Assembly (NCBI RefSeq): GCF_963675165.1
Contig: NC_087378.1
Location: 2,163,525 to 2,227,524, forward strand
DNA length: 64,000 bases
Origin: Halichondria panicea
Lineage: Eukaryota > Porifera > Demospongiae > Suberitida > Halichondriidae
Direction: 5' to 3'
Both the position numbers and the translations under genes were made by a program. This document shows, in pieces, positions 14,701 to 42,560 of this stretch (the first letter of the stretch is position 1; each line of letters starts with the position of its first letter). A model generated the notes under the pieces. That model searched no databases. It was not told where the DNA came from and worked only from the letters and a program-made list of their open reading frames with translations.

Positions 14701-15936
14701 GGGACATGCCCATTTTCTAAATCTGAAAATTGGCAAGCTGGATAATCAAGGTTCCTGATAATGGAGGGCCGGATATAATTGAGGTTCTACTGTAGTGTTT
14801 TGTGGCTTTAATACCAGGACCTCAAGAAAAGATGAAAATAGATTCTGCCAGGATCTGGCGTTGAAAATGGATTGTCTCACATGTGGGGATGAGCGCGCAT
14901 GCGCATTAGATCCACTGGAATAAGGGGCCTGTCTGCAAGAGGTCAAGTTCATAAAATTAATGGCTGCTTTAGCAGCTCTCGAGTTGTAGAAATTGTGCGA
15001 CAAATGATGCTATGAAAGACTCTGAAGAGACTGCAACAGTCTTCAATGTGAGTCAAACTAGCCAGAACTCGTTGCTATAGTCCACGAATCAAAATCCAAG
15101 AGAATGTGGCTAGAAGCCTATAGAAGCTGTTACTTTTCGTCGCATTGCAACCACTGAGCAGTTACAACGTTAACTGGAAAACACACACACAGACAGATAG
15201 ACGGCCAGACAGACAGACAGACAGACACACACACACACGGTCAGCTGCTTACCGGATCCCTCATGCGGCTACGCCTCGAGGCATAATTATTGCGTAATTA
15301 TTAACATTAACACTGAAGGTGTTCCTGCCTTTCATACCTGGATTTGAGGTGTGTGTTCCAGCATGGTAAGGTCTTGGAGGAGTGACTCCCCAACTGTCAC
15401 TCTGCAATGTATTGGGAGCAAATGAGGGGTTCCAGCTTTCTTGGTCAATAAGCGGTGCAGAGCTTGAGCTCTGAGTGGCATTGTACACAGGCGAAGAGGG
15501 GCTTCCAGCAGCGAAGTTTCTCCTTGGTGTTGTTGTTGAAGCAGTTATAGAACGGCTTCTTCTTGCTCCTCGACCACGTGGATCTGCTGATGCACCAAAG
15601 CTCGTATTACCTGCCAATAGTTATACAAAAATAAAATGTTTATTATACAGAGAATATTTTATTTTATTTACCCTCTTCATGTTCGATGAGAACGAAGTCA
15701 GCATATTGTCCTAGGTCATCATTGAGTTTACTGCTGTCTTTTTCATGTCTCTGGTTCAGTTTCTGCTGAGGAGAATGTTCTTGTTTCCCAACAGAAGGAG
15801 CTTCTTGCAAAGCTGCAATCCGACCTCTTGCTCTGCCCCGTCCACGTCCACTAAATCTAGAGTGATCGATCAACAGAGAAATTTCTCCAGGCTTCACTGG
15901 TTCAGGGGTCCTGGATCCCTGTTGTGAGTCGGACAT
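11750..15936 (-). CDS. Probable N-terminal exons of PARP14-like gene A
   Basis: Exon 15672-15936 starts with ATG (MSDSQQGSRTPEPV) and holds an arginine-glycine tract (GRGRGRARGR) like the first exon of paralogue B. Exons 15338-15610 and 11750-11893 follow, each with AG acceptor and GT donor, both symmetric phase 1. The last donor ends in phase 1, exactly what the RRM exon at 3927 needs. The two inner exons are related to each other (GRNSAAGSPP against RRNFAAGSPSSP; LIDQEGWNPSTAPNT against LIDQESWNPSFAPNT), so one is a duplicate. The encoded segment is low-complexity, rich in Ser, Pro and Arg. Upstream of the ATG is a block also found upstream of paralogue B. The link to the core exons across a 7.8-kb intron is inferred from phase and paralogy; a separate small gene is the alternative. 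Confidence 0.55.
11894..13380. other. Intronic region with repeat fragments
   Basis: Contains a block at about 12419-12500 that recurs inverted at about 23085-23165 (gtttaatcgaggccatcac), and an R1 copy in reverse orientation at about 12719-13045. No convincing coding frame. Confidence 0.45.
12719..13045. repeat. Dispersed repeat R1, reverse-oriented copy
   Basis: Reverse complement of the R1 body at 6700-6860, including cacgtagccaaacttg and the accgaggcatca end. Confidence 0.6.
13390..13727. repeat. Large near-perfect hairpin with internal duplication
   Basis: The block from agagtatcgaacgtagg through gtaacgtgacttcctg and aagcttggaatttgc is mirrored downstream, ending cctacgtttgatactctc. 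Inside the left arm a unit of about 58 bp (aagcttggaatttgcaca through gaccaatccaa) is present twice, the right arm having one copy. It is open in several frames only because of its symmetry. Confidence 0.8.
13728..13890. repeat. CCGTATAG-family MITE, copy b (right end worn)
   Basis: Starts taccgtatagtgggtata, carries ttttgagggtata, and ends with ttataccctcgaaatata, where the terminal repeat breaks off. Confidence 0.65.
13891..15260. other. Intronic region, no gene seen
   Basis: A few short frames only. It contains an aatgcgcatgcgcgctc-like palindrome (about 14890-14905) that also occurs near other R1 copies, then an R1 copy from about 14990. Confidence 0.4.
14990..15290. repeat. Dispersed repeat R1, copy
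   Basis: Contains gactctgaagagactgca, the aatcaaaatccaagagaa core, a CAGA-rich tract, and ends gcggctacgcctcgaggc followed by ataatta. Confidence 0.65.
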
Positions 15937-16009: not shown

Positions 16010-16061
16010 CAGCCCAAATAATACGGGGTGGGGCTGATTCCCTTGACAGGATATGTGACGA
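16010..16061 (-). promoter_or_regulatory. Conserved promoter-proximal block of gene A
   Basis: About 75-125 bp upstream of the gene A start, the plus strand reads ggggtggggctgatt and then gacaggatatgtgacga. Almost the same words lie about 110-180 bp upstream of paralogue B (42489-42560). The shared block points to duplication of promoter plus gene. It stops abruptly at the transposon border. Confidence 0.55.
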
Positions 16062-16180
16062 TGTCAGAGGAATGAATGACTCCCCGGTGGGAGTGACCCC
16101 CCGGTCATTCCTGCCTAAGGTGTGGGTGACTCCCCCAGGAGTGAATGACTCCCCTGGCCTATGCGATGTTTGTTCCCGCC
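16062..16180. repeat. Left terminal inverted repeat and subterminal motifs
   Basis: The 24-bp terminus is followed by alternating ggtgggagtgacc, ccggtcattcc, gtgactccccc and gaatgactcccc words, which mirror those at 22218-22356. Such subterminal arrays are typical transposase binding sites. Confidence 0.75.
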
Positions 16181-16599
16181 AATGTGACCTGTTTCCATCG
16201 ATGTAACTTCGGTATATAGTAGCAGGAGTACATGCATTCATGCACTCCAATGCATGTACTCCTCATAGTAGAGAATGAAGAGCCATGCAGGATGAAGAAG
16301 AGCAAGGTTAGTAGTAGCAAGGTAGCAATGAAGCAAGTGTTCATCCTGTAGTAGACAGCAAGTGACAGCTGGAATGTAGACCTATACATAATAGTTATAG
16401 GCTGAGTCCAAGGTCTCTATGGGGTTTTGAGACCCGAAGGCCCGAGGCTGTAGCATCTCGAGCGTAGCGAGGGTGCTACTAAGGGCCTAAGGGTTGGTTG
16501 AAAATGGTAGCCTCTATATAACAAGAAGCACACCAAAGCTGCTGATGCAGCTGACTGGAGGATACGTGTGCGCAGCGATGAGGAGAAATCAAGAATCCT

Positions 16600-16750
16600 C
16601 GAAGATTGCCATGCCAGACGCTTCCTCCTCTCACAAGCCAGACGTCCCCTCTTCTCACAAGCCAGATGCCCCCTCCTCTCACAAGCCAGACGCCCTCTCC
16701 TCTCACAAGCCAGATGCTCCTTCCTCTCGCAAGCGAGACGCCCCCTTTTC
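16600..16750. repeat. 24-bp tandem repeat inside the transposon 5' region
   Basis: About six units of a 24-bp word built on tctcacaagccagacgcc lie just upstream of the transposase promoter. All three frames are open through it on one strand or the other (for example SSHKPDAP repeats on plus), so the open frames here are a by-product of the repeat and no gene is called. Confidence 0.75.
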
Positions 16751-16771
16751 TCGTTAAACGAGAAGCGTGGG

Positions 16772-16779
16772 TATAAAAG
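16772..16779 (+). promoter_or_regulatory. TATA box of the transposase gene
   Basis: TATAAAAG within gcgtgggtataaaagg, followed by a GC-rich ggggcggggcc block, about 155 bp before the ATG. The same arrangement occurs inverted at 20597-20627. Confidence 0.65.
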
Positions 16780-16935
16780 GGGCGGGGCCCCGGCCAAAAA
16801 AATGTCGCATGCAAAATTTATAAGGGATAAAAATTAATGGCTCAACGCTTTTATGAGCGTAAAAGGAGCGTATTGAACGCTTGACATCCGCTTAGCACGT
16901 GGTCTTTTAGTCAGTAAACAGTAAGCTAGTTTGCG

Positions 16936-19434
16936 ATGGCTACTTCAAGGAAACGGGTTCACTTCGTTGATGAAGAGGAGAAGCAAGCGTTTCTTGGTCG
17001 CCTAAAGCACGTCCGTGAGCTGCTAAAGCCTCCTGGAAGCCCTCTGCTTGACAACTTTAGCCTGTTGAGCACACTCTGTGCTTCTGTTGAAGGTGACCCA
17101 GATCACTCACACCCTCCCCCTACCCCTGTTACTGCAATCAGGAGCTTTATGAGCAACAATGGTAAGCAATACAAGCATCATATAAGTAAATGCTCTATGA
17201 AGCATCATGCAGGTATGTACAAAAACGATACTTCCGATGGGCAACAACTCTTTGCCACGGAGTATCATTGTTTCACTGACCTAGTGAAAGGGCTTGCCAC
17301 GCCCTGTCCGTGTGGGGTAACTAGAAGTCCCTGGGAAGTCCAGTCAATAGTACAGGTGTGTGTTGGAAGTTGACTGTCAGTTTTATAAATTACACGTGTG
17401 TTTTTTTGTAGAAAGGACATGTGGTACGAGCTCTTTTTTGCTGCCGACGCTGTAAGGTGCAGAAGAGAAAGTGGTCTAGCTCCCGTGTATTTGGAGGACA
17501 TTATTTGGTGAACCAGAAGTAAGCTTATGGATACCATACCATAGTTATGTGTTTACTGCATCTCTGGTATATTTTATATAGGGTTGTTCATGGGTTTACT
17601 TGTGCTGGAATTCTACCCTCCCAATACACCCACTTTAGTCAGTTCTGTGGTTTAGGGACTGTTGGTCAAAGTTACATCCGACAAGGTTAGCTCACTCCAA
17701 CTATACCCAGAGTGTAAGTAAATTCATATGTTTCCTCAGTGTACGGAAAGCTAGGTTACCGTGACATTGTACAAAGGGCAGCAAACGTGAGCATGATGTC
17801 GGCTGTTTTTGATGTGAAGGCCCTTCCTGAGTATACCACCAACAAAGGAGAGGTGTGTTTGTGTACTGTATTACTAGTAATAAATAATTTTATTATTGTT
17901 TTAAACTTAGTGGGTAATCACTGATGCCCGGCACGACTCAACAGCCAACGCATACCACACAACTGTGCCTTGCCTGTCTGGAAGGTGGGAAGTTAGTGTG
18001 TCTCTGTCGGTTTTGTATTTATTTTGTATATTTTCAGCAACAAGAAGATACTCGGCATATCAACTCTCTCTCGGGCCGAACACTCTACTGCACAGACCAG
18101 AGAACTTGCATGTACCAAGCTTGTTATCCCTCAAGTGCAAAGCAGAGGTTTATCCCCATAATAAATGAATGCACATAATAATTATTGCCAAATCTAGGTA
18201 TTGAAGTCATCGAGGTAGCTCATGATATGCAGGCGCAGGTCGCAAAGTACGTGTCAGACGAGTCGGGACTCATCAATTCCTACGACACTTGGCATGGTAA
18301 GAAAATGTGTGATATGTTGTATCATTTTCACACACATTTTAGGAACGAAGAATGTGTCGAAGGAAATAAAGAAAGTAACACAGGGCCTAGTTCGTGATAG
18401 AGGGAAGGTTTGGTTTCCTGAATTATCAGATAAACGTAAGAATCTACTAATTAAACTTTCATGTACACTAGTAAGGTGTGCATTAATAGGAAGAAGTATA
18501 AAGATCCACCTGTATTGGGCAATGAAAAATTGCGGAGGGTCTGCTGAGAAACTGAAGGAGATAATAATGAATATCCCTAATCACTACCAGGTTAGTTATT
18601 ATTGTTGCGTGTTTATTAGTAATACATTGATGTTTTTGTAGAGAATCCACACAAATTGCCACCCTTCCTCTACTTGCCACATGGACGACTACGAACCCAG
18701 TAGGGACAAGCTTGTTAGCAGAAAGGCTATAGAAGCTCTCATAAAGCAGCTCCATACGACGTACATTTACCGCTATGCTAAAGATTTCTGTTCGGTAAGG
18801 ATTAAACATGTGTTGTTTGTATAACATACCCGTATATTGTATAGTGTCGTGATACCTACTGGGTTGAGTCGTTCAACCATCAACTCCTCACCTACCTGCC
18901 CAAGCGCATTCACTTTTCGACTGAGACGTTCATAATGCGAATGAATTTGGCTGTCTTGGATTGGGTACGTACATGGAGTATTATTATGTGTACACTATGT
19001 GGGGGGAGAGCTTCTCGTACACTAATTTGTAGTAGTATTTAGAGCTTACATTTACTTTAAATTTCAGTCTATACTATCGATAATTGCTTTATTCCAGAAT
19101 GAGAACATCAATCGCTCTTACACCAGTATGAGCAAAGTGAGTGACCTTCGACGATCAGATCGCCGCACAGCAATGAAAGCCTTAGTGAAGAAAGGTTTTA
19201 AATTTGTTGCTTTGCTATGGGCAATGTATGTTGAACAAAACAAAGCTGATATGAGGTATGATTACAATGTGTATGTATATGTAAGGGCATTTGACATGTA
19301 ACTTTCGTAGAGAATTGATCGAAGAAGATGACGTAGTAGAGGAGCAGAATGATGACGTGACCTTAGAAGACGGAGTGATGCCACCAGAATATTCTGACGA
19401 GTCAGAGGCTGAGGACGATGACATGGACGACTAA
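16936..19434 (+). CDS. Transposase-like protein, 14 exons, intact
   Basis: Exons 16936-17161, 17213-17355, 17412-17518, 17582-17685, 17740-17852, 17911-17984, 18038-18147, 18198-18296, 18343-18435, 18490-18590, 18642-18794, 18845-18964, 19098-19255 and 19311-19434 total 1725 bp, or 574 residues. A Cys-rich patch (CPCG, then CCRRC at about 135-145) precedes WVITDARHDSTANAY, VAHDMQAQVAKYV, DTWHGTKNVSKE and SIKIHLYWAMKNCGG. That order, an early Asp, a mid Asp/His, then a WH and a HLYW block, resembles uncharacterised DDE-type transposases found in cnidarians, sponges and fish (family memory, not a search). The C-terminus is acidic. Introns are 50-60 bp, mostly. It lies within the element, in the same direction as the Ulp1 gene. 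No stop interrupts the spliced frame. Confidence 0.75.
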
Positions 19435-19517
19435 CAATTAATGATGACATGGCCGACTAACAATTAATGAGTTTTATTTACTACGTAATTGGTGTGTACA
19501 GGATAATTATAAGGCAG

Positions 19518-20405
19518 TCACTCTCTAGAGGTGGACTCGGTTTCCATAGCAGCCTCTTCTGGCAAATACGCAGTTTCTGCCTCAAATGTTGATCTGTAAT
19601 AGTAATAAGGAATTAGTATTTGCTTTGCTCTTGTTAGCCCCCCTATGCTAAATTCCTAGTCTCTTAGCATAGTAGGCACACTATTCCATTTGATATCAAG
19701 GCCTTACCTGTAGTCACGGTATATGCCATTGTGGCTGGGGTACCTCCTCCTAATCTCCTACACAAGAGAAACAGTACATGTACATACCTGTAAAATTTTA
19801 TCACTTACTAAAACTACACATTTCGGGATTATTTCCCTCTTGTCATGTATCACTGTCCTCGTCTCCTTCCTAGCCAAATACTCATCATCTACCCACACTC
19901 TCAGTGTATTCAGCAACCTCCAGAACTTTCTGTACAGTTGATGTCTTTTCTCATCGTTGGCAGGCTGGGGGCCACAAGATCCTCTTAGAAAGTCTGGAGG
20001 AAGCTGAATCACACACGGTGAACACAGGCAGTGTATGCAGTGATCAATGCCACGGAGAACTGGAGTTGCTGGGTTGTGCTGGTAACCACGAACATGGTGC
20101 GGGTATTCTAATAAAAAAATTTGACTTGTGTGTTTATTTCTACTTTTATGTACATGTACCTTCTTGTGGTTCTAAGTCGTCGCTATGAGTGTCTAGTGCT
20201 AGTGTTGCATTCAACGTCAGCTGTACTGTTCAATTGCCGCTTGGTTGGTTGTTCCGGAGAAAGTCGTTCAACCTGTCCACCCAATCACTTGGAACTGCTT
20301 CCCCACTCATTAGTATTAGCTAAAGTATGGATTTGTATGACTTTTTACATTGTTCTATTGTGTTCTTACTCTATTTCCATCGCTGTTGGAGCTGCCAGAA
20401 GCCAT
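19518..20405 (-). CDS. P2X7-C-terminus-like Cys/His protein, one in-frame stop
   Basis: Five exons (20370-20405, 20160-20319, 19809-20107, 19708-19757, 19518-19593) total 621 bp, or 206 residues. The core reads HCIHCLCSPCV, then NDEKRHQLYRKFWRLL, REIIPKCVVLEIRRRYP and NGIYRDYR. The Cys cluster, the R-x-x-x-Y-R helix and the IPxCVVxxIRxxYP..xGxY end match the cytoplasmic zinc-binding ballast region of P2X7 receptors, which also exists as stand-alone proteins. No transmembrane segment is present, so it is not a channel. TGA at 20230-20232 interrupts exon 2, so this copy may be inactive or start downstream. It converges on the transposase gene, with 83 bp between stop codons. Role in the element unknown; nucleic-acid or zinc binding is a guess. 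Confidence 0.65.
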
Positions 20406-20596
20406 TGTACCACAAAAAAAACCATATGGGTCTTGAAAAAACTTAGAAGTGTTGCTGCCATGTGTTCAGGCCTTCTAAGGCTACTTCTGGGCATGTGCAG
20501 TAAAATAAGTGTGTTTGCGTACTGTACGTGTGTGTGCTAGAGTCAGAGAGCAGCCAGAGTTTGAATTAGCCGCCATTTGCAGCAGCATTCACTTCC

Positions 20597-20627
20597 GGCC
20601 GGGCCCTGCCCCTTTTATACCGTGGGC
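20597..20627 (-). promoter_or_regulatory. TATA promoter of the P2X7-like gene, inverted copy
   Basis: Read on minus, cccacggtataaaagggg followed by cagggcccggcc mirrors the transposase promoter at 16766-16794. The Ulp1-like gene starts 93 bp away on the other strand, so the interval 20406-20719 acts as a divergent promoter. Confidence 0.6.
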
Positions 20628-20719
20628 GTAGCGCTCTAGCAACGAGTGCGTAAACGCGCAGTTCATAGATTGCATATCAATTTTATGCACAAGCTTCTCG
20701 TTTAAGCTGCATCCTCTAT

Positions 20720-21752
20720 ATGGAGCCACCTTTGAAGAAGCAAAGGACTACTCAGTCTGTAACAAGAAAGGTATAATAATAGTTATATATACTTGTTAAC
20801 AGGAGCTATCGTTAATTACAATTATTATTATGTGCACACTATACCGTTCATTATAATTATTGTGTGCACATTCGACAGAATTCAAGCTACTGGGTGAAGG
20901 ATTTGGACCTGAGGACGGGAGACAAGGATGTAATTCTTGCTGAGAGCGGGTTGCTTTCCGACCGTCATATGCATGCTGCCCACAAACTAATGAGAATGCA
21001 ATTTCCAAATATTGAAGGCTGCTACTCTACTCTTCTGGTTCAGAAGATGTCCTTTCATGCAGTCACTAATAGTGAAGCCACAGGTATAATTTCTACTTAG
21101 AACTTAATTTAATAGTAGTATTATTATAGTATTGGTATACATAATTATACCTCATCCTTGGCCGTATAATTATAATATTTATTTATTATAATTATATCAT
21201 ACTCGTGCAGATATTCTTTGTAACAGAGAGGCATCACTGGATTGCGACAGCACTCATCAAGGGGGAACTTTTCCTCTTGATAGCTGCTTCCAATATGGGA
21301 AAGAACTGGAGCCAAGTGCTGAGCTGCAAATCGCACAAAATAATGTATAAGCCTTTAATAGCCCGCACAATGGGCTGTTACTGTCTGTGGCCTCCATTCA
21401 ACAGCAGAGCAGTGGCAGTAACAACTGTGGTTTGTTTGCAATTGCCGCTGCATACCACGCATTGCAAGGAGACAATCTGGATACCATCACCCTAAATGAA
21501 GACAAAATGAGGCCACACCTTGTGCGTTGCTTTGAAAATGAGAAACTCAGAAGATTTCCAAAGTCAAAAGATGTTAGTAGCCGCAAGAGACCAGAAAGAT
21601 TTTCCAGCATAGTAATTACGATATACTGCCCTTGTCTCCGCCCTGACTGTTATGATGTAATGGTCCAGTGCGATACGTGTAATGTGTGGTATCATTATAA
21701 ATGTGTTCGTATTAAAGTATCTCCACTTGGAGATTGGTTTTGCCCTATATAG
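20720..21752 (+). pseudogene. Ulp1-type cysteine protease with PHD finger, frameshifted
   Basis: Exons 20720-20770, 20879-21083 and 21227-21752 begin MEPPLKKQRTTQSVTRK. ERHHWIATALIKG carries the catalytic His of C48/Ulp1 peptidases. QQSSGSNNCGLFAIAAAYHA carries the oxyanion Gln and nucleophile Cys. A C-terminal CPCLRPDCYDVMVQCDTC and WYHYKCV..WFC pattern is a PHD finger. Between His and Cys the frame shifts by one base near 21275, where LDS would supply the catalytic Asp, and a TAA follows at 21348-21350. The exon sum is one base short of a whole number of codons, so a single deletion explains it. Ulp1-like partners are known in several large eukaryotic transposons. Family call firm; this copy is probably dead. 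Confidence 0.75.
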
Positions 21753-22217
21753 TTGTAGATCTAAATAGAATTTTTTAGCATTTCCTTATCTTCCACTAGC
21801 TGTTTTTGTTTATACACTGTAATAATTATTAATTTGCGCTGTTGTTTTGTTTGTTTTTCATGCACTGTAGATCTAGTTATTGTGAGGATGTTGTTGTATT
21901 ATAAGTTTTGCTTTACAGTGACGATCGTGAGACATGTGAAAATGTAAACAGAGTGTACAATGTAGTATAAGTACTATAGGTACTAACTGATATGATAGCA
22001 TAGCTAGACTGAACCAGTTTACAGTAAGGAACAGCTGTAATTATAGTCAATACTATATAACATTAATTAAACAGGCCTCTCACAGATAGCATGCATGCAG
22101 TCCTGATAACAGTCTTGAGCTTGATTGTATAGTCACACTGCATGTGACAGGTTTTGAGGATGTACTTAGTATAGCCTTGAAGTCTTTTTAGCTCTATATG
22201 GATGTTCGTATGTAAAT
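21753..22217. other. Right subterminal spacer of the transposon, no gene
   Basis: AT-rich sequence between the Ulp1 gene and the right subterminal repeats; nothing recognised. Confidence 0.5.
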
Positions 22218-22356
22218 TTCGGGGGAGTCATTCGTGACTAGGAGTCAGTGACCGGGGGAGTCATTTATTCCTAGGCGTGAGTGACCGGGAGTCACTGGTG
22301 ACTAGGTAGGAGTGACCGGGAGTCATTATTTAGGGGAGTCATTCATTCCTATGACA
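22218..22356. repeat. Right subterminal motifs and terminal inverted repeat
   Basis: Repeats of gggagtca, gtgaccggg and gactaggag words lead to the terminal GGGGAGTCATTCATTCCT and the ATGACA end, mirrored at 16062-16180. Confidence 0.75.
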
Positions 22357-23819
22357 ACGATGTTTACCAACACTCGAACTCGACTTGCGTTGTACATGAT
22401 ATTATGTAGACTAAACAAAACTCTCGAACAACTCCACGTACCTCGACAACAGTTGCCAGTTCTAGTGGACCAAACACCTTTGCTAGCGCTTTAGTGCAAG
22501 GCTAACTCATATGTTGAATAGAAAGTTTGTGCGGACAGATGATGCTATGAAAGATTCTGAAGAGACTGCAACAGCCTTCAATGTAGCCATAACTCGAGAA
22601 AGAAGCTTTAGTTTGCTAATCCACGAATCAAAATCCAAGAGAACGTGGCTAAAAGCCTATAGAAGCTGTTAGTTTTCGTCGCATTGCAACCGTTGAGCAG
22701 TTACTGCTGGAATACACCATAGATTGAAGAGAGAGGGATAGGAAACGGAGTGGTGCACGTGATGATTTTACATTGAATCTGCAGTAGAGCCTCGAAAATT
22801 ATCCGCGCTACGCCCTATGAACGAGGCTATTAAGCACACTTTTGCCGGGTAACTCCCAAAGCTGTGTTTCCTCGAGACATAATCTCTTTCAGCAACTTAA
22901 AACACGCCTAGTCCATGAGCCACGTGTAGTACTTGCTAATGACTGACCACACCCAGTAAAAAGAGACTTTCCAATAAAGTTATATGTTCCCAAGGCTGTT
23001 TTAGAGCTATTGGAACATGTAACGTGTAAGCGTTTATGACTACTACAATAGGTATAGACCTTGAAATATAAGTGAGTTGCACGGACTAAGCACAGTAAAT
23101 AGATATTGTTGTGATGGCCTCGATTAAACCGCACCGTAGCGCCGATGTTACTCGAGATACAAACGGTTTCCTATCCCTCTAACTCTTCAATCTATGAATA
23201 CACACACGTATCCCTCGTGCGGCTACGCCTCGAGGCATAATTATGCTAATAGCTCGAGGGCAAAATCAAGAGAGCTACCTAGACTACTCTTCCCCCCTCC
23301 CCCCTCTGAGAAAAGGTCTGGCCCCCAGACTAGGCTAGCTACAAGCTGAAGTCTATAAAATTCATCTGATAAACCATCGCTATCTCATTAAACTTGCAGC
23401 GACTCATTATAATTATGATGATGCATTTTTATTATACTCCGTTTCTAAATTGAATGCATAGCACAATGTCATAGTTAACTGCGTTTATATCTTGTACTTA
23501 CGATACCATGCACTTTCATGATTATTTTGGTAGAGAATTTTTTGCTTGCGCTGATGAATTGGGATTGATCATTTCTAGTGGTAGATGATATATATTAACG
23601 ATGGCTAACTGTTCTTGCTGTCTCCTCGTATATACATTTTTCAGTTACATACCTCCTAAGGCTGGGTCAAGCCTGTTTTGTAGTAGGCATGAAAATCGTA
23701 TCACCTATTCGATACATCTTGCTCACACCGTTTCTGAAATTACAATGATCTGAAAGTGTTTCATGACATCACCAATTGGACTTTGCTTGTAAAATGAGAG
23801 TATATACGTATAACACTTA
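22357..23819. other. Gene A upstream side, repeat-rich, no gene
   Basis: Begins with the displaced half of the gene A promoter block (tgtttaccaacac). Then come an R1 copy in pieces (22520-22705 and 23205-23245), an inverted copy of the 12.4-kb block (23085-23165), and AT-rich sequence. Confidence 0.45.
22520..23245. repeat. Dispersed repeat R1 copy, interrupted
   Basis: The first half (gattctgaagagactgca through aaaagcctatagaagctg) and the end (cgtgcggctacgcctcgagg) are separated by about 500 bp that contain another repeat, including the ggcctcgattaaaccgca segment. Confidence 0.55.
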
Positions 23820-31700: not shown

Positions 31701-34700
31701 GGCATCTTCACCCATTCTTTTGGTGTTTCTAAAGAGCAGAAAAGTACATACAATCAGAGGGCATAATTATGATTATAATGCAGACAATGTTACCTTCTTG
31801 TACTTTTTTAAGAAGATCAACACGGTTGACACTGCATTTGGAATCTTGTTTGGTATGATCAATTTCCTCATTCTTTTCAAAATCAATAGTGAAGTCTGTG
31901 TGATCAGGTTGTGACGTGTGCCGATAGTCCCCTTTCCCACTTCTGTAGCGGTAGGCATTTTCAATCTCGAGATTTTCTTCTTGAGAATATTCTTCTTCAT
32001 CACCATTTGAGTCAGTTCTAAACCATTTTATCGTTTTGTACACTTGTTCTGAATCTTTTTTCCTTTTAACAGCCCTTTCAACTTCGGATAAGAGCTCCAT
32101 AGCAAAGCATTGCATTTTGTGCACGTTGGACGCATCACCTTTGATCTTGATGGTGTTCAGAGGATCAGGATCAATTTCAATATATACATCAAGCTCTTTT
32201 GATTTACTTTGGAGTCTACTCACTTCTTCAGGGGACAAATTATCGATAAATCGATTTTCTACTTCATTAGATATGAATGTTTCCTCTATTAGCTTCTCAA
32301 TGCCCTTCTCAGCTGCATTGACAGAGGCATTGGTTTTTCCATAAACTCTGATGACTACTTCCTGATTTATGTCGTCAAATGTCACTGTAACTGGGCTTTC
32401 ACTTGCTGAGGCTTCTGACCGAGATGGAAACACAAAGTTGATTGCCCGCTCAATAAATCCAGGAGTTTCGAAAGACGCTGGATTCTGAAACACTTGGATA
32501 AACTTACTGCAGTCATCATGTGAATACAAAACAATACGAATCTGCTTAAGATATGAGAGAATAGGTGAGACCTGCTGAATTGCTTTGTACATCCCAAGAG
32601 CAGCAACTTGTGCAGGATATCCATGGATACCAGTTCCAATAGCTGGCAATGCAATAGATTTGTACTTCATATTCTCAGCTTCTTGTAGACAGGCTACAAT
32701 TAGTTTCACAAATTTTTTGTCATCTTTGCTCTCAAAAACGATGTGAAATAATGTTTTTGATTTGAGGTCACCTGTAACAGGCGTGAAAATCACTTTTCCT
32801 TCTGTCAGTTTCCCAAAATTAGCTAATACAGTATTGCATGTTTCTTGTAGATTATGTCCACCTTTCCGTAGAATTGCTCCTGCTACTCCCTGGCCAGTAA
32901 GTTGCATGGTAGAGTTTGTAGGGACTACAATTGTGTCTGTGTCTTGGTCACCAATATCCCCTTGTATAATCTTTACTCGCAACTGACCAAATGATACAGT
33001 ACAATCAGTTCCAGGAACGACTGCATTCTTTAATGGTGGTTGCGAATAGGACCTGGGCTTAACTCGTTTAGGTACTCGTGTATGTAAAATCGACTTTGGA
33101 ATGTGAACTGCAGATGGATTGCTGGTAGTCTGGGAGTTTTGGATTGCTGTTTGGAATGCTTGGTATGTGTCTGCCATAAATATGACTAAATGAACAGTAG
33201 ATATGGATGATGCACTAGAAGCAAAAAACGATTGAATTTCATCCACCATTACTTCAGCAGCAATATTGTTAGGGAAGCGAAGGTTTCCTGTTCCAATGGA
33301 TGGGAAAGCAACAGAACTTACATTAAGTTTTGAGCATGTTTCGAGGCAAGAACGAATAACTTTCCTCAGAACCTGTGTGATCGAACTAATATAGTAATAG
33401 TCAAAAATTAAGACTCGGAATCACCTTTTGAGCTTTCCCCCCTGGCTGATCAAAGTTGGGAACAACTGTATGCAGTATGTATTGACACCGTATGTTTCCA
33501 GGCTTTGTAGGTACTACATCTCCAGTCCTGATCGGAGCCCTGGCTGTACATTCAGTTTGTAATGTTTGGCCGCCAGCTCTGAGTAGAGCTTGGGCCACAG
33601 CCCCTTGAGAAAGGTCAAGGTTGCGGTTGGCAGAGTTCACGTAGACATCGGCCTGTATAAATTAATATTATTATATGGCGCAATAATTATTAGTTCCAAA
33701 AATTTTATAATTATGGTATTTGTATCTATAGGGGGTACTCTTTTTGTCAACTGGTATAGAAAAAAAATATTCAGGGGTACACTTTTTAGTGTAGACTGCC
33801 AAAAAAACATTTGGGGTGCTCTTATCAGTTTAGGTACACAATTCATTTTTTGAAGGTACCAATAAATTATACTCTTCCATAATAATTATAATGACCTGAA
33901 CTGGAAAGAGTACCCTCAAATATATTTCCATACAGCATGCAGGGTTTCATCTATAGTGCATGGGGGGCACAGTGGCGTTTCTAGGAATATCAGTAGGAGG
34001 GTGCTCGGGTCGTGCGAGCGGCAAAAATTTGGGTCCCGCCCACGCACCAGAAGCCACACCCACGTTAAGGGACACACCTTCATTATACAAAGAACAATCA
34101 CAATAGTAAAGAAGATATCAACTCTACCATGCATTGCCTACAACCATAGATAGAGTATGCTACAACTGACTCATCTTAGCTATATCAAATGTTACGGTGT
34201 ATGTGTAGAAGAGATAGTCCAGTTAGTCGATTGTTCTGTGTGATTTTACTGCTGTCTTTATTCTCTTCAGATCACTGAAAGATCTCTCTGCTGAGTAGCT
34301 AGTGACAGGCACAATAATTATACTATCACCAAGAAAATCTGTATCAAAATTTCTCTACCTGGTAGAGTGTGATCAGGTTTTTCTAGTCCTCTGCTGGGGA
34401 TGGTTAGGTCACTTTCTGAATTATATAGACACTGACAGTGACAAGGAACAACTTTCTGATGCAGATTCTTGACTTGTACTATTTTGTAGCATGCCAATTT
34501 TGATAAGTCACAGTACGCATGCCCAGCTAGGAAACTTGGAGGTGTGGTCTCCAATCAGCTCTTCTGCGAACTCTAGTGCAAGCTCAGGCTAGGAAACTTG
34601 GAGGTGTGGTCTCCAATCAGTTATAAAAGCTCTTCTGCGAACTTTAGTGCAAGCTCAGGCTCAGCTCCCAGCTATCCAGTAAGTTCCAGTAATTAATGTT

Positions 34701-37700
34701 AAGCTTAGGGGGTGCTTGAGCACCCTGAGCCCCTAGCTGGATACGCCACTGGGGCATGGGGGAAGCTTCCCCCCAGAATGCCCCCCAAAAGAGAGGAGAA
34801 AATAGGAGGAGAGACTGAGAGGGAGATAGGGAGAGGAAGAGGGAGAGGGAGACCCAACATTTTCTAGATGCGGTCTTTTGCTACATGTATAGCTTTGCTA
34901 TAGAGGATGATTGGTCATTATCTATTCACAATTTCAAACCAGTACATGGAGTTGCCTGTCAATGCACTTTGCTAGGAGTATAGATCGCTATAATAGGCAC
35001 TAACAACAAACAATATAGGGGTGTGGTGACTGGAAGTGGGCATGGCTTCAACTTTTTTGCGCTAGAGTGCATGGTTCTTTTTCAAGCTTCCCCCCCAAAG
35101 ATCTCTACTTAGGGGTGTGGCTTGTATTTCTAGAGCGCATCCATAGAGTTTGAGTACCATTATTGACGCCATGCACTCTAATTTGAATATTTGTAGACGA
35201 AAATGGCCTGTAGCCAAACAGTGGGAGCAAACCTTTGTCAAAGGCACAGCGTAAGGGAGAATTTAAGCACAGACAGTAGTATAGTACAGACAGTATAGTA
35301 TCTAAATAAGCAGAAAGTGTATGTCTAAGAAGAAAAGATTTGTGTTCATGTATCTATTCAGACTATTGTTAGTACATATGCATCTATTATCTACTCTATA
35401 TGGTATCATTGTCGTGTTTTGTGGCTTACCGGTATACAAGAAATTCTCTAACATGTGGGGATGAGCGCGCGCGCATGCGCATTACATCCACAAGGGTGTC
35501 TGCAAAGATCAATATGGCTACTATATAGCTAGCTGCTTTAACATAACTTTTCTGACTTTGTAGCTAACAAAAAGCTAGCGCTTTAGTGCAAGGCTTAATT
35601 CATATGTTGAAGAAAGTTTGTGCAAGCAGATGATGCTATGAAAAGACTGCAACAGCCTTCAATGTAAGTTAAACTAGCCATAACTCGAGAACGAAGCTTT
35701 AGTTTGCTAATCAAAATCCAAGACAACGTGGCTAGAACCCTATAGAAGCTGTTAGTTTTCGTCACATTGCAACCATTGAGCATGCAGTTACAGCTGGAAC
35801 AGACAAACAGACAAACAGACAAACCAGACAGACAAACAGACAGACACACACAATGCACACATGCACACATGCACACATATTATCCCTCGTGCGGCTACGC
35901 CTCGAGGCATAATAAGGGATCTGATGAAGGCCTTCCCACTTCTCCAGAAGCTAAGGTATGTGTACAAAATCTGCTCGCAACTGTATGGTCGTGCCACCAG
36001 CATGTCCTCTAAGCTTGTGCTACATAGCCCAGGGCTTCCGCCTCTGTTGACTCAACGAGCCATCAACAATCTCTGTAGCCAACAGTTCTCTATAAATCAG
36101 CTCTCTCCTCAGCTATTAGCACGTACATTTCCAGCTAGCGTAGTTGCACCAGATCCCAGTGTTTAAGGGACTGTCAACCATGAAGATTCAGGGTGTCATA
36201 CATGCAGGATTTTGAAGTAGAAGGGGGAAATAAGAAGAAAATGTTGCTAAACAAAGGTCATGCAACTGTTATTTTAATACCCTACTGAGCTATTAGTATG
36301 CAAAATTGCCACTCAGTCATACAACACAACATGAACGCAAATTTAGGGGGGGGGAAATTGGAGCTAGGGGGAGATATCCGCCCCATGTTGTATGACACCC
36401 TGAGATTGACATAATTATACCAGTGCACTCAAAATTAATTTTAAGGGTGTGCTCTAAATAGAAATACAAGTCACACCCTTAAGTAGAGGTTAAAGTACGT
36501 GTACTTTAACCCACGTACTTTAACCTTAGAAATTATTTTGGGGGTATGGAAAAATATTGTTAATTAAGGGTACTCTTCCAGTCAGAAAAAATTATTTTGT
36601 GTATTTAAAGCACCCCCAAGTGATAGTCTATACACTAAAAAGTGTACCCCTGAATATTTATTTTCTATACCATGCAGTTAACAAAAAGAGTGCCCACTAG
36701 ATACAAATACCGTATTATACTCTAATTTTGGCACTAATATTGCGCCATAGTATGATAATATTAGCACAATATCTGTATATAATGTGCTAAGCTAAGTTAC
36801 AATGCTACTAAACCCCACCTGAACGTCCAGGAGACCACCTTGGTGAAGCTTAATAGGAGCACTTCCTTGATGTAAAGGCACAGAAGCATTAGCTTTCTTC
36901 TTTCGACCTTTGGGAGTAGTTCGATTTGATTGGCTTCCATAAAAGGATGGTAGGGGTTGAGGGTTATAGGTAGTAGTAGCCTTACGGGCTTGTTCCATCT
37001 GAATGCTGGCTTTGGGGAGTAGACTTTGAAGAGTCGAAACAAACACAATTGAGTCAGGTTCCTTGTACAAAACAAGATTGATTTCTTGTATTGTAGATGA
37101 AGCATATTTCTCACTGTATTCAATAAATGTTTTGACCATTGTTAGTGCACATTTGTCAAGAGGGAAGCCATAAACTCCAGAGCTGATTGCAGGGAATGAT
37201 ATCGAGCGAAAATTATGGCAAGATTGCAAACTTTGAAGGCATGATTTTCTTAGCAAGGCTTCTTCCTTACTACGTCCACCTTGCCATCTTGGTCCAACGG
37301 CATGAACGAGGGCTTTGCAAGGGAGATTTCCAACATTCTCTGTCAGCCACGCACTCCCTGTATCAACTTTCCCATGTTTTCTTACGTAATTATCAGAGTC
37401 AGATTGAATTATTGGTCCCCCTTTCTTAGCAATTGCTTGAGCGACTCCGCCAATGTGTTTCAGATCTTCATTAGCCGCATTTACAATTACGTCTGTTCCA
37501 TCAAACTCGGTAATATCTCCAACAAATACATTTACCTTTTTACCTCCTTTGGGTAAGAGTGCTGTACATTTCTTGACAAACTTAGCAGAATAATTATCAC
37601 CTGTCAATACAGTTTCATATGCTTCAGTAACTTCAATTACAACACGGTTACGAGCCTCAATTCCATATAAGAAAGTTCGGGCCTTCTCCGATCGAAAATA

Positions 37701-40700
37701 CTTGCAAGTACCGGGTTGATTTTTCTCAATGTTTCGCTTGCAAACCTTTGCTTGTACGCATGAAAGCTCGTTGGTAATTTGCTCTACGTGAAGCTTATCA
37801 CCTTTAAAGATCAGGGTGCAGCTATCTTCATCTCCATTGGTAGGCTCTTTGCAGGCAACTTCAAGTTGGTTGCACTTTTTAGTAATAGACAGCCATTCTG
37901 GTCGCATATGTGTCTGGAAGAGCCTCCAAACTCCTGCCTCGATAGTGAACACCACTTCATCTGTACACTTTTCCTTAATGTACTGGAGCAAATGCTTTGA
38001 ACACTGCTGAACATCTTCTTGAAACCCACAACTATGAGCTCATTGTTAAGAGTACTGATTACGACTTTGTTTTGATTCTCAAGCTCCTGGCACAGTGGAG
38101 GATAATCTTCTAGTTGAGATTGCAATAAAACGAATGATTTGGAAAGTGGATTCTTATGTGTAGTCACAGTTTGCTTCAATTTTTTAATAGCATCGTCAGC
38201 TGATTTTTTTCCACTTAATTCACACAGGAAGCTCAGCTTGGAATTTCCACAGTGTACAGCTAGCGGATAGGACTGTGTGCGAACAAAGCTTAGAAGTCTT
38301 TGGTAGCCTAATGTGCTTTTGAGGAAGACATTGATTCTTTGGTCAACTACAATTGGCACGTCCAAGTGAACCTTCAGCTCATTAACCTCTTGGCGAAGCT
38401 CATGAATATCTTTAACCGTACCTCTTACAGATAGTGCATTGTGACTTTCTTGAGGGTCAATTTCAATCAAAGAAAAGCGTTTCTTTATTTCAGGAAGTTT
38501 GAATGTCACTAAGAAGGTAAATTCTTGTGGACTCAAAGAAATGTCAAATTGGGTAATGGTGTATCTATCAGATATATTCTCTATCATTTTTTTGGCATGG
38601 TCAACTATTAGTTTTTCACCTGCAATTGACAGTTTAGCATTATTTTCTCCAAAATTGTAAACAAATGATGGAGCTTCATTTTGAAGATTAGATAGTTGTC
38701 CTAAGATATCAGTAAATGCATCCTTGGGAATTGATTGATTCTGCTCTTCAGAAAATGTTTCCTTGATGTAAGATTCTATCTGTGTCTTGCAATTCTCCTG
38801 CCAATGAGCAGGTGTTTGCTTTGTAGAGGTGACTGTTATAATTCCAGTTTTTGTTTCAATTTCCAGTTTGACTCGAAGTGTATCAAGACGATGGTTTAGG
38901 TCTTGAGTATTCTTGCTAATTGATAGTGCAAGTAGTGGTTTCACATAAATTTTAAAGTAACTCGGAATACTTGTGGGTTTTGAGGTATTCGGTATTGCGG
39001 CTGTAGCATGATTGACCTCCTGCTTAGTAACACACAACAGATCGTTTAACTCAATTGAAACGTCATTGCCCAAACTGCTCGAGTGAGAATGCTTTAAAAC
39101 TTCTTGGGCATCTATTATATTATACATGTAATAATTATGGTTCAGGTATGTCTGTATGTACCTTTTGCATTCTTGAATGATACCACTGCTTCACCGTTCC
39201 CCAGAAGCTCAACACGTTGAACTACTTCAACGCCTTCACTAGAAATCTTGGACTCAAAATAGAGGCTCAAAAAATCATCATCATAATGATCGCTTCTAGT
39301 CACATTTGATATTCGAATGCTACTGCACACTTTGTACAGTTCAGCTTCAACTTTAGCTTTTCGGAGAGGTTTTTCTAGAATACTCGAAATCATTCTCTCC
39401 AATTCTATAGGTTAATACAAATGACGTGTATACGTTTGCTTGACATTAAATAAGAATGTTACCAGTGATTGGGTAGTCTCTTGTGAAAGTGATAACTGCT
39501 ACATCTCCCACACGTTCAACTTTGAAATTATCCTCCACTTCCATCTTCAGTCGTGTAGAGAGATATAATTGAAAAAACTCATCATCTACATCAGCCGGGA
39601 TCTTTTGAAGAAAGAGCTTATTAGGTTCATACTCTCTCTGCTCTTTAGATGGACGTGTCTTCTTCACATATTGCAACTCCAAAGGTTGCTTGAACAGGGA
39701 GTGACTTTCTTTTGCCAGGACGCAGGCAGCAGCTGCACACAAATATGTAATTTAAAAGAAAGAGACGAATAAACAAACCTTCTGGAGTGTGGAATATCAC
39801 ATGGGCAGTTTCAGAGTCAATTATTTTGATTTCTTCCACGCAATCTTTAGAACCACCAGATCTGGAGTTTTCAAAGTACATTTCCAGCACCTCAACTGCA
39901 ATGACCCGTGGTATGCTCTTCACCTCAATAGTACATTGTTCAGTTCCAGAGGCATTCTTGTCCGTCCCATCATCTTGTGTGAAAACTGGGCTAGAATTAT
40001 CAAATTCCACAGAAAAAACATCCCCTCTAAGTTTGTGGTTCTTAGTCTTGATTCTTGACATTTCTGGTAGTGCGAGGAGATCAAATTTTAGACGATGAAC
40101 ATGTGTGTCAGCTAGGGCATATACCTTCACTGGTTACGCCTGAAACCAGAGCTCTTGCCTTCCCATTTCCAAGGAGATCTATTGATTCTACTTCAACATT
40201 GTCTCCTAGAGCAGCACAATAAATCTCCAGATCACCCTTTGATATATTTAAAGATAATGAAGAGAAAAGCATATATCTAGTAGGAGCGGTCGAGCCAGGC
40301 TTTTCTGTAAGGAATGACACTCACATCTTGTTACAATTGCACTATATCTACAGCTGTTGTATACATGTACCTGTGTTGTCTTTTCCTAGAGCTCCATTGT
40401 TTGTAACTTGTTGCTGATGAGATACCTCAGGTAATCTTGTACAACTGAGGTTTTGTAGAGAGTGATTTCCAGACATATCTCCCACAGCTGGATTAATTAT
40501 GTTATGTTAAGTATATAATTATGTACAGAACTTTCCTGGAACATGCCCTTTGTTTAAATTTTGCTTACATTGTCTAGGAGATACACAATGTACTGGTGGC
40601 ATTTCACTGAGACACACTGCAGGTGTACTGGTCATCACCAACAGGGTGGAAGCTCCTATCTCTGCTGGTGATGCACTAAAAACATTCTGAACAATGGTTC

Positions 40701-42488: not shown

Positions 42489-42560
42489 GCAGCCAAAAAT
42501 AAGTATGGGGTGGGGCTGATGCTAGAGCGACAGGATATGTGACGATATTTACCAACACAC
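42489..42560 (-). promoter_or_regulatory. Conserved promoter block of gene B (empty site)
   Basis: Plus strand reads gcagccaaaaataagtat, ggggtggggctgat, caggatatgtgacga and tttaccaacac in one uninterrupted run. Gene A has the same words split by the 6.3-kb transposon. Confidence 0.6.

Follow-up and report, generated by a model that had tools for sequence, protein, structure and literature searches.

An apparent three-gene transposon in the sponge Halichondria panicea is very probably two elements, one of Kolobok type inside one of Ginger1 type

Positions 16062-22356 of the window, by which we mean the whole 64,000-nucleotide stretch of Halichondria panicea DNA that was analysed, raise the question of how a single pair of transposon termini comes to enclose a gene set that matches no named family. 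An earlier note, made from the letters alone, had described one DNA transposon with three genes (transposase-like, P2X7-C-terminus-like and Ulp1-PHD) that might represent an undescribed family, and all three gene regions are present between the termini as it described them. Copies elsewhere in the genome contain either the outer part or the inner part alone, and the apparent three-gene transposon therefore splits into two elements. We are nearly certain that the stretch consists of two distinct mobile elements, the inner nested in the outer, both of them near kinds known from animals. On this reading the gene set fits no named family because a Kolobok/Kol0-type element (PMC9587614) sits in a Ginger1-type one (PMC2836005). 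As nesting explains the odd gene set, a new transposon class is unnecessary; a false one is removed, and the locus becomes an example of how nesting can fabricate such a class on paper.

The outer element and its copies

The outer boundaries reported in the earlier note held up on inspection. The left terminal inverted repeat, which begins 5'-TGTCA (16062-16085, plus strand) and recurs at other copies, pairs with the right one (22333-22356, minus strand) over 24 ungapped bp, all but one of them matching. With gaps allowed, a local alignment carries the likeness on to ∼200 bp at falling identity and, together with the inverted pairs I4, I6, I9 and I13, bears out the mirrored subterminal motif arrays noticed there. 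The 4-bp duplication ACGA is likewise in place, at 16058-16061 and 22357-22360, recognised from the flank sequence on both sides and, for the left copy, also from a paralogous region that is uninterrupted at 42489-42560 (plus strand). When the host flanks are put together around a single ACGA, the alignment to that region covers 72 bp at 83% identity. On its own, the left flank gives an alignment of 59 bp (81%) and the right flank no match to the paralogous region; the right share of the 72-bp alignment is 13 bases, 12 of them identical. Because the right flank adds just 13 bp and goes unmatched alone, the readable empty site claimed earlier is good on its left side but short on its right. A gene presumed to start on the minus strand, with its ATG at 15936, has the insertion 126 bp upstream of that start. 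Two frames that lie downstream of the start of the paralogous gene, on its strand (36792-38036 and 31732-33420), encode macro domains, consistent with the PARP label of that gene.

Within these ends the outer element lies in two pieces on the plus strand, a left part at 16062-16757 (one TTAA copy included), which is continuous with the right part in two other copies, L024 and L025, and a right part at 20702-22356, delimited by alignment to fetched copies. A remnant of the first integrase exon is found at 16498-16614 (plus strand), 95.7-96.6% identical to 4.4-kb copies; the remaining integrase is deleted, with a break common to L024 and L025. A repeat search and the copies place 24-bp tandem repeats at 16610-16753 (plus strand), forming a linker before the Ulp1-like and PHD coding region at 20720-21752 (plus strand). 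The PHD finger is matched by PF00628 at E 1.1e-7, and the Ulp1-like region was recognised by its H-D-Q-C motif order, which we take to be that of Ulp1. Pfam searches gave no Ulp1 match and no protease above the cut-off (Josephin, E 0.053), and a PDB search with the Ulp1-like region returned only SseL at E 0.6. A frameshift and a stop codon disrupt the Ulp1-PHD frame of the window, and the frame is broken in L024 and L025 too. These three copies constitute a 2.3-kb subfamily that lost its integrase at one common break, L024 and L025 being 98.1 and 98.2% identical to the outer parts of the window.

Genome searches with the left and right ends (∼140 bp each) gave at least 40 and at least 42 matches, respectively, and the termini do recur as inverted pairs around other copies. 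Among the matches listed, we fetched 20 loci (L011-L030) with left and right ends in close proximity, a choice by which a longer copy could be overlooked. Twelve of these (L011-L022) are copies of 4.3-4.5 kb with pairwise identities of 98.8-100% (median, 99.9%); TGTCA stands at both ends of all 12, as it does in the window copy, and each of the 12 has identical 4-bp flanks, CCGG in 8 cases. Over the whole sample, the 4-bp duplications that the earlier note had proposed to look for were found as identical flanks at 14 of the 20 loci (9 CCGG, 2 ACGG/CCGT, 2 CCCA and 1 TCGG). The expectation failed at the other six, with no identical duplication at L023, L024 (one mismatch), L025 and L028 (none), and one recognisable end only at L029 and L030. 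At L023:300-6294, a 4.4-kb and a 1.5-kb Ginger1-type copy are separated by 16 bp, and no clean duplication encloses the pair.

The coding content of a full-length copy is seen in L014, where an integrase with an H2C2 zinc finger (E 5.4e-19) and an rve core (E 1.1e-10; best solved relative a Ty3 Gag-Pol chain, E 8.6e-14) accompanies a PHD finger (E 2.8e-8), the 24-bp-repeat linker and, by motif, an Ulp1-like region. GPY was seen by eye at a place where the SH3_Tf2-1 match is below the cut-off, and the first exon has YP and YY residues, also seen by eye and unaligned to references. Of six L014 peptide pieces, every one is found unchanged in 7 of the 12 copies (L011, L014, L015, L016, L018, L019 and L022); one piece differs in each of L012, L013 and L017, three pieces differ in L020 and four in L021.

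Ginger1 elements, in the portions of Bao, Kapitonov and Jurka (2010, PMC2836005) drawn on here, have TGTNR ends, terminal inverted repeats of about 40-270 bp, target duplications of CCGG (75%) or CCGT/ACGG (24%) and a gypsy-type integrase with YPYY before the zinc finger, GPY/F and a C-terminal Ulp1 or OTU protease, sometimes with PHD; Ginger1-9_HM combines Ulp1 with PHD. The outer element shares the 5'-TGTNR ends and 4-bp duplications that are mostly CCGG, the Ginger1 target set CCGG/ACGG/CCGT accounting for 11 of the 14 fetched loci with identical flanks. It also shares the length of ∼4.4 kb in full-length copies and, as seen in L014, an integrase of gypsy type that carries an H2C2 finger and an rve core, with a PHD region and a region that is Ulp1-like by motif on the C-terminal side. 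Unlike Ginger1, its near-perfect repeat is only 24 bp long and continues as a gapped repeat array, the window copy is without integrase, and the window duplication ACGA is absent from the published targets. We conclude that the outer element derives from a Ginger1-type transposon by deletion of the integrase. Ginger2 was rejected for it, the targets given for that group in the same portions of PMC2836005 being AT-rich RTATAY as against CCGG here.

The inner element and its genes

The inner element is bounded by TTAA at 16754-16757 and 20702-20705, limits that were set by copy comparison, and spans 3944 bp (16758-20701, plus strand) with the ends 5'-ACGAGAAGC...GCTTCTCGT-3'. From 151 transposase matches in the window's genome we chose 18 loci (L031-L048). 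Five of them (L031-L035) have the inner part and lack the outer: homology begins at 16754 in all five and ends at 20693-20706, and their flanks bear no relation to one another, any two of them agreeing at 5-16 of 30 bases, against some 7-8 by chance. To this group also belong L036 and L046, both damaged, and L037-L048 are otherwise more distant transposase relatives. TTAA is found on both sides at five of eight tested loci (the window, L032, L033, L034 and L035), on the left only at L031 and L046 and at neither end of L036; the last three loci count against nesting, the first five in its favour. The ends read 5'-AC...GT-3' in the window, L032, L033 and L035, the right end being CT in L034. A second Kolobok-type family of 3.7 kb (L037-L039) is TTAA-ended, with 5'-ACGAG termini and a KolX of its own; L037 is 99.0% identical to L038 and L039 over 3.69 kb, and ends of this type are also found in L041 and L045. 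The genome thus hosts near-identical Ginger1-type copies alongside KolX-bearing Kolobok-type elements.

The transposase is modelled at 16936-19434 (plus strand) as 14 exons with GT-AG introns, open over 574 residues, with D236, D302 and E449 as candidate catalytic residues and a DxxH at 322-325. The profile search that the earlier note had recommended for this protein gave PF20700 'Mutator-like transposase' at E 1.5e-7, above the cut-off, with a match that is collinear in both halves; a PDB search with the core returned only ParM at E 0.37. All of the window residues D236, D302, D322-H325, C396, C402 and E449 are found again in L037, L040 and L041. In a comparison of nine diverged loci the last acid is kept as E in seven, being C in L044 and A or a gap in L045; L042 and L043 show K, R and S at D302 and DxxH, perhaps through misalignment across introns, and L048 has L at C402 in this comparison, some rows of which are misaligned across introns. 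C396 and C402, which follow DxxH, are putative zinc-finger residues, a full H2CH finger not being established. Catalysis of the DDE type would be expected of the protein from the families that it resembles. With its exons joined, the transposase reads open in L032 and, from another start, in L033; in L031, L034 and L035 it is broken. Its exons diverge less than its introns in all five copy comparisons (0.5% against 1.2% between the window and L032, for example); no clear third-codon-position excess was found in the transposase between copies, so this exon conservation does not demonstrate selection.

The accessory KolX-like gene (P2X7 ballast-like) is placed at 19518-20310 on the minus strand, its start and exon limits being modelled, and the presumed upstream exon contains an in-frame stop (20230-20232) that is absent from all five other aligned copies. 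The P2X7-C-terminus-like match of the window is to PF20478 at E 4.7e-4, below the Pfam cut-off, and all four KolX members examined, each from the window's genome, match this family below the cut-off. Nine P2X7 positions are given in the portion of PMC7016195 used here (R546, A549, Y550, Y/F553, W559, I/V568, P570, C572 and R578). The last four align ungapped with I93, P95, C97 and R103 on the C-terminal side of KolX, and no counterpart lines up in KolX for the first five. PDB searches with KolX, as a single sequence and as a profile, found no P2X7; U2-segestritoxin, the sole match (E 0.23), was taken as chance. By analogy with the families concerned, KolX would most likely serve the transposition complex as a zinc-binding accessory protein. 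KolX forms a larger family in the genome, with 56 matching stretches, some belonging to one gene. Four more diverged KolX-like coding stretches (L049, L050, L051 and L052) are 36-48% identical.

Nesting and the order of insertion

Directly in evidence are the ends and the duplication of each element, independent copies of the two parts and outer copies that lack the inner part. L024 and L025 have a single TTAA, and no insert, where the window carries its insert (their total TTAA counts are 7 and 10). None of the 20 outer loci that were fetched gave a row of at least 60 bp to the inner stretch (∼16757-20696), so that the inner part is present in 1 of 21 outer loci examined, the window, and missing from L011-L030. 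It counts against nesting that L024 and L025, the two insert-free copies, are both among the six loci without an identical outer duplication. The alternative of one undescribed three-gene family, with L024 and L025 as internal deletion copies, would account for three gene regions between a single pair of termini. We give it almost no credence, since the inner part has its own TTAA-flanked ends and other flanks elsewhere, since the junction in L024 and L025 has just one TTAA, like an unfilled target, and since only the window, among 21 outer loci in a sample drawn from close-lying ends, has the inner part. The transposase and KolX occur apart from the outer termini, and Ulp1-PHD occurs with an integrase inside them, a separation that the earlier note had itself named as speaking against a single transposon.

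The most likely history begins with the insertion at ACGA of the 2.3-kb integrase-deleted Ginger1-type derivative, probably mobilised in trans by the integrase of full-length copies. Later, a 3.9-kb Kolobok-type element with transposase and KolX entered a TTAA inside it, duplicating that TTAA. Its point of entry, between the outer 24-bp repeats and Ulp1-PHD, was one of several TTAA sites in the outer element.

Placement of the inner element

In the parts of Kojima and Bao (2022, PMC9587614) that we draw on, Kolobok elements have TTAA duplications and 5'-RR...YY-3' ends, with a KolobokP lineage showing other 3-5 bp duplications, and Kol0 elements encode a transposase together with KolX, which resembles the P2X7 ballast domain and is proposed as its origin. 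The inner element resembles Kol0 in its TTAA duplication, in a DDE transposase with DxxH and in an accessory gene that recalls the P2X7 ballast domain, with a PF20478 match below the cut-off. It is unlike Kolobok in having 5'-AC rather than 5'-RR ends and a transposase without a THAP match. THAP is called usual for Kolobok, and AG ends are reported, in the part of Hikosaka and Konishi (2018, PMC6004289) used here; two N-termini (window and L037) gave no THAP match at E up to 10, in searches whose filters drop most matches above ∼0.1. Because it departs on ends and on THAP, we call the inner element a Kolobok-type variant and not a certified member of Kol0.

These departures could mark a new Kolobok-related lineage rather than a Kol0 member, given that 5'-AC ends are found both in the inner family and in L037-L039, L041 and L045, against the reported 5'-RR, and that THAP goes unmatched; the TTAA duplication, the DDE transposase with DxxH and the KolX partner are, however, all compatible with Kol0, and we consider a new lineage possible but rather doubtful. 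We would suggest only tentatively that the element belongs to an undescribed Kolobok branch with TTAA, 5'-ACGAG, KolX, an N-terminal cysteine cluster replacing THAP and several families per genome. If real, such a branch would broaden what counts as Kolobok and would be relevant to the question of which branch the P2X7 ballast domain came from. Judged from the sequence, the novelty that is left would be modest, comprising the 5'-AC ends and the missing THAP match as compared with published Kolobok descriptions. By the name of its Pfam family the element would be a Mutator-like (MULE) transposon, a reading that the above-threshold, collinear PF20700 match favours and that we nonetheless consider improbable, since the inner duplications are 4-bp TTAA, where MULEs produce longer ones of 8-11 bp, and since KolX is the neighbour of the transposase. 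The C/DxxH motif does not decide between MULE and Kolobok, being reported in MuDR, P, hAT, Kolobok and Dada alike, according to the parts of PMC9587614 used here. The TTAA duplication is also a likeness to piggyBac, which was rejected, as no piggyBac Pfam match is listed for the transposase; the KolX cysteines, six of which are invariant across four aligned rows, are unlike piggyBac.

Around the insertion, a tRNA scan was empty. The stretch at 15181-15252 of the window is a simple-sequence repeat and the likely cause of matches to L038 left of the insertion. To the right of it, 22482-22712 is 89.6% identical to L038:7722-7955, which lies beside another Kolobok-type copy, and this stretch therefore has the appearance of a dispersed repeat.
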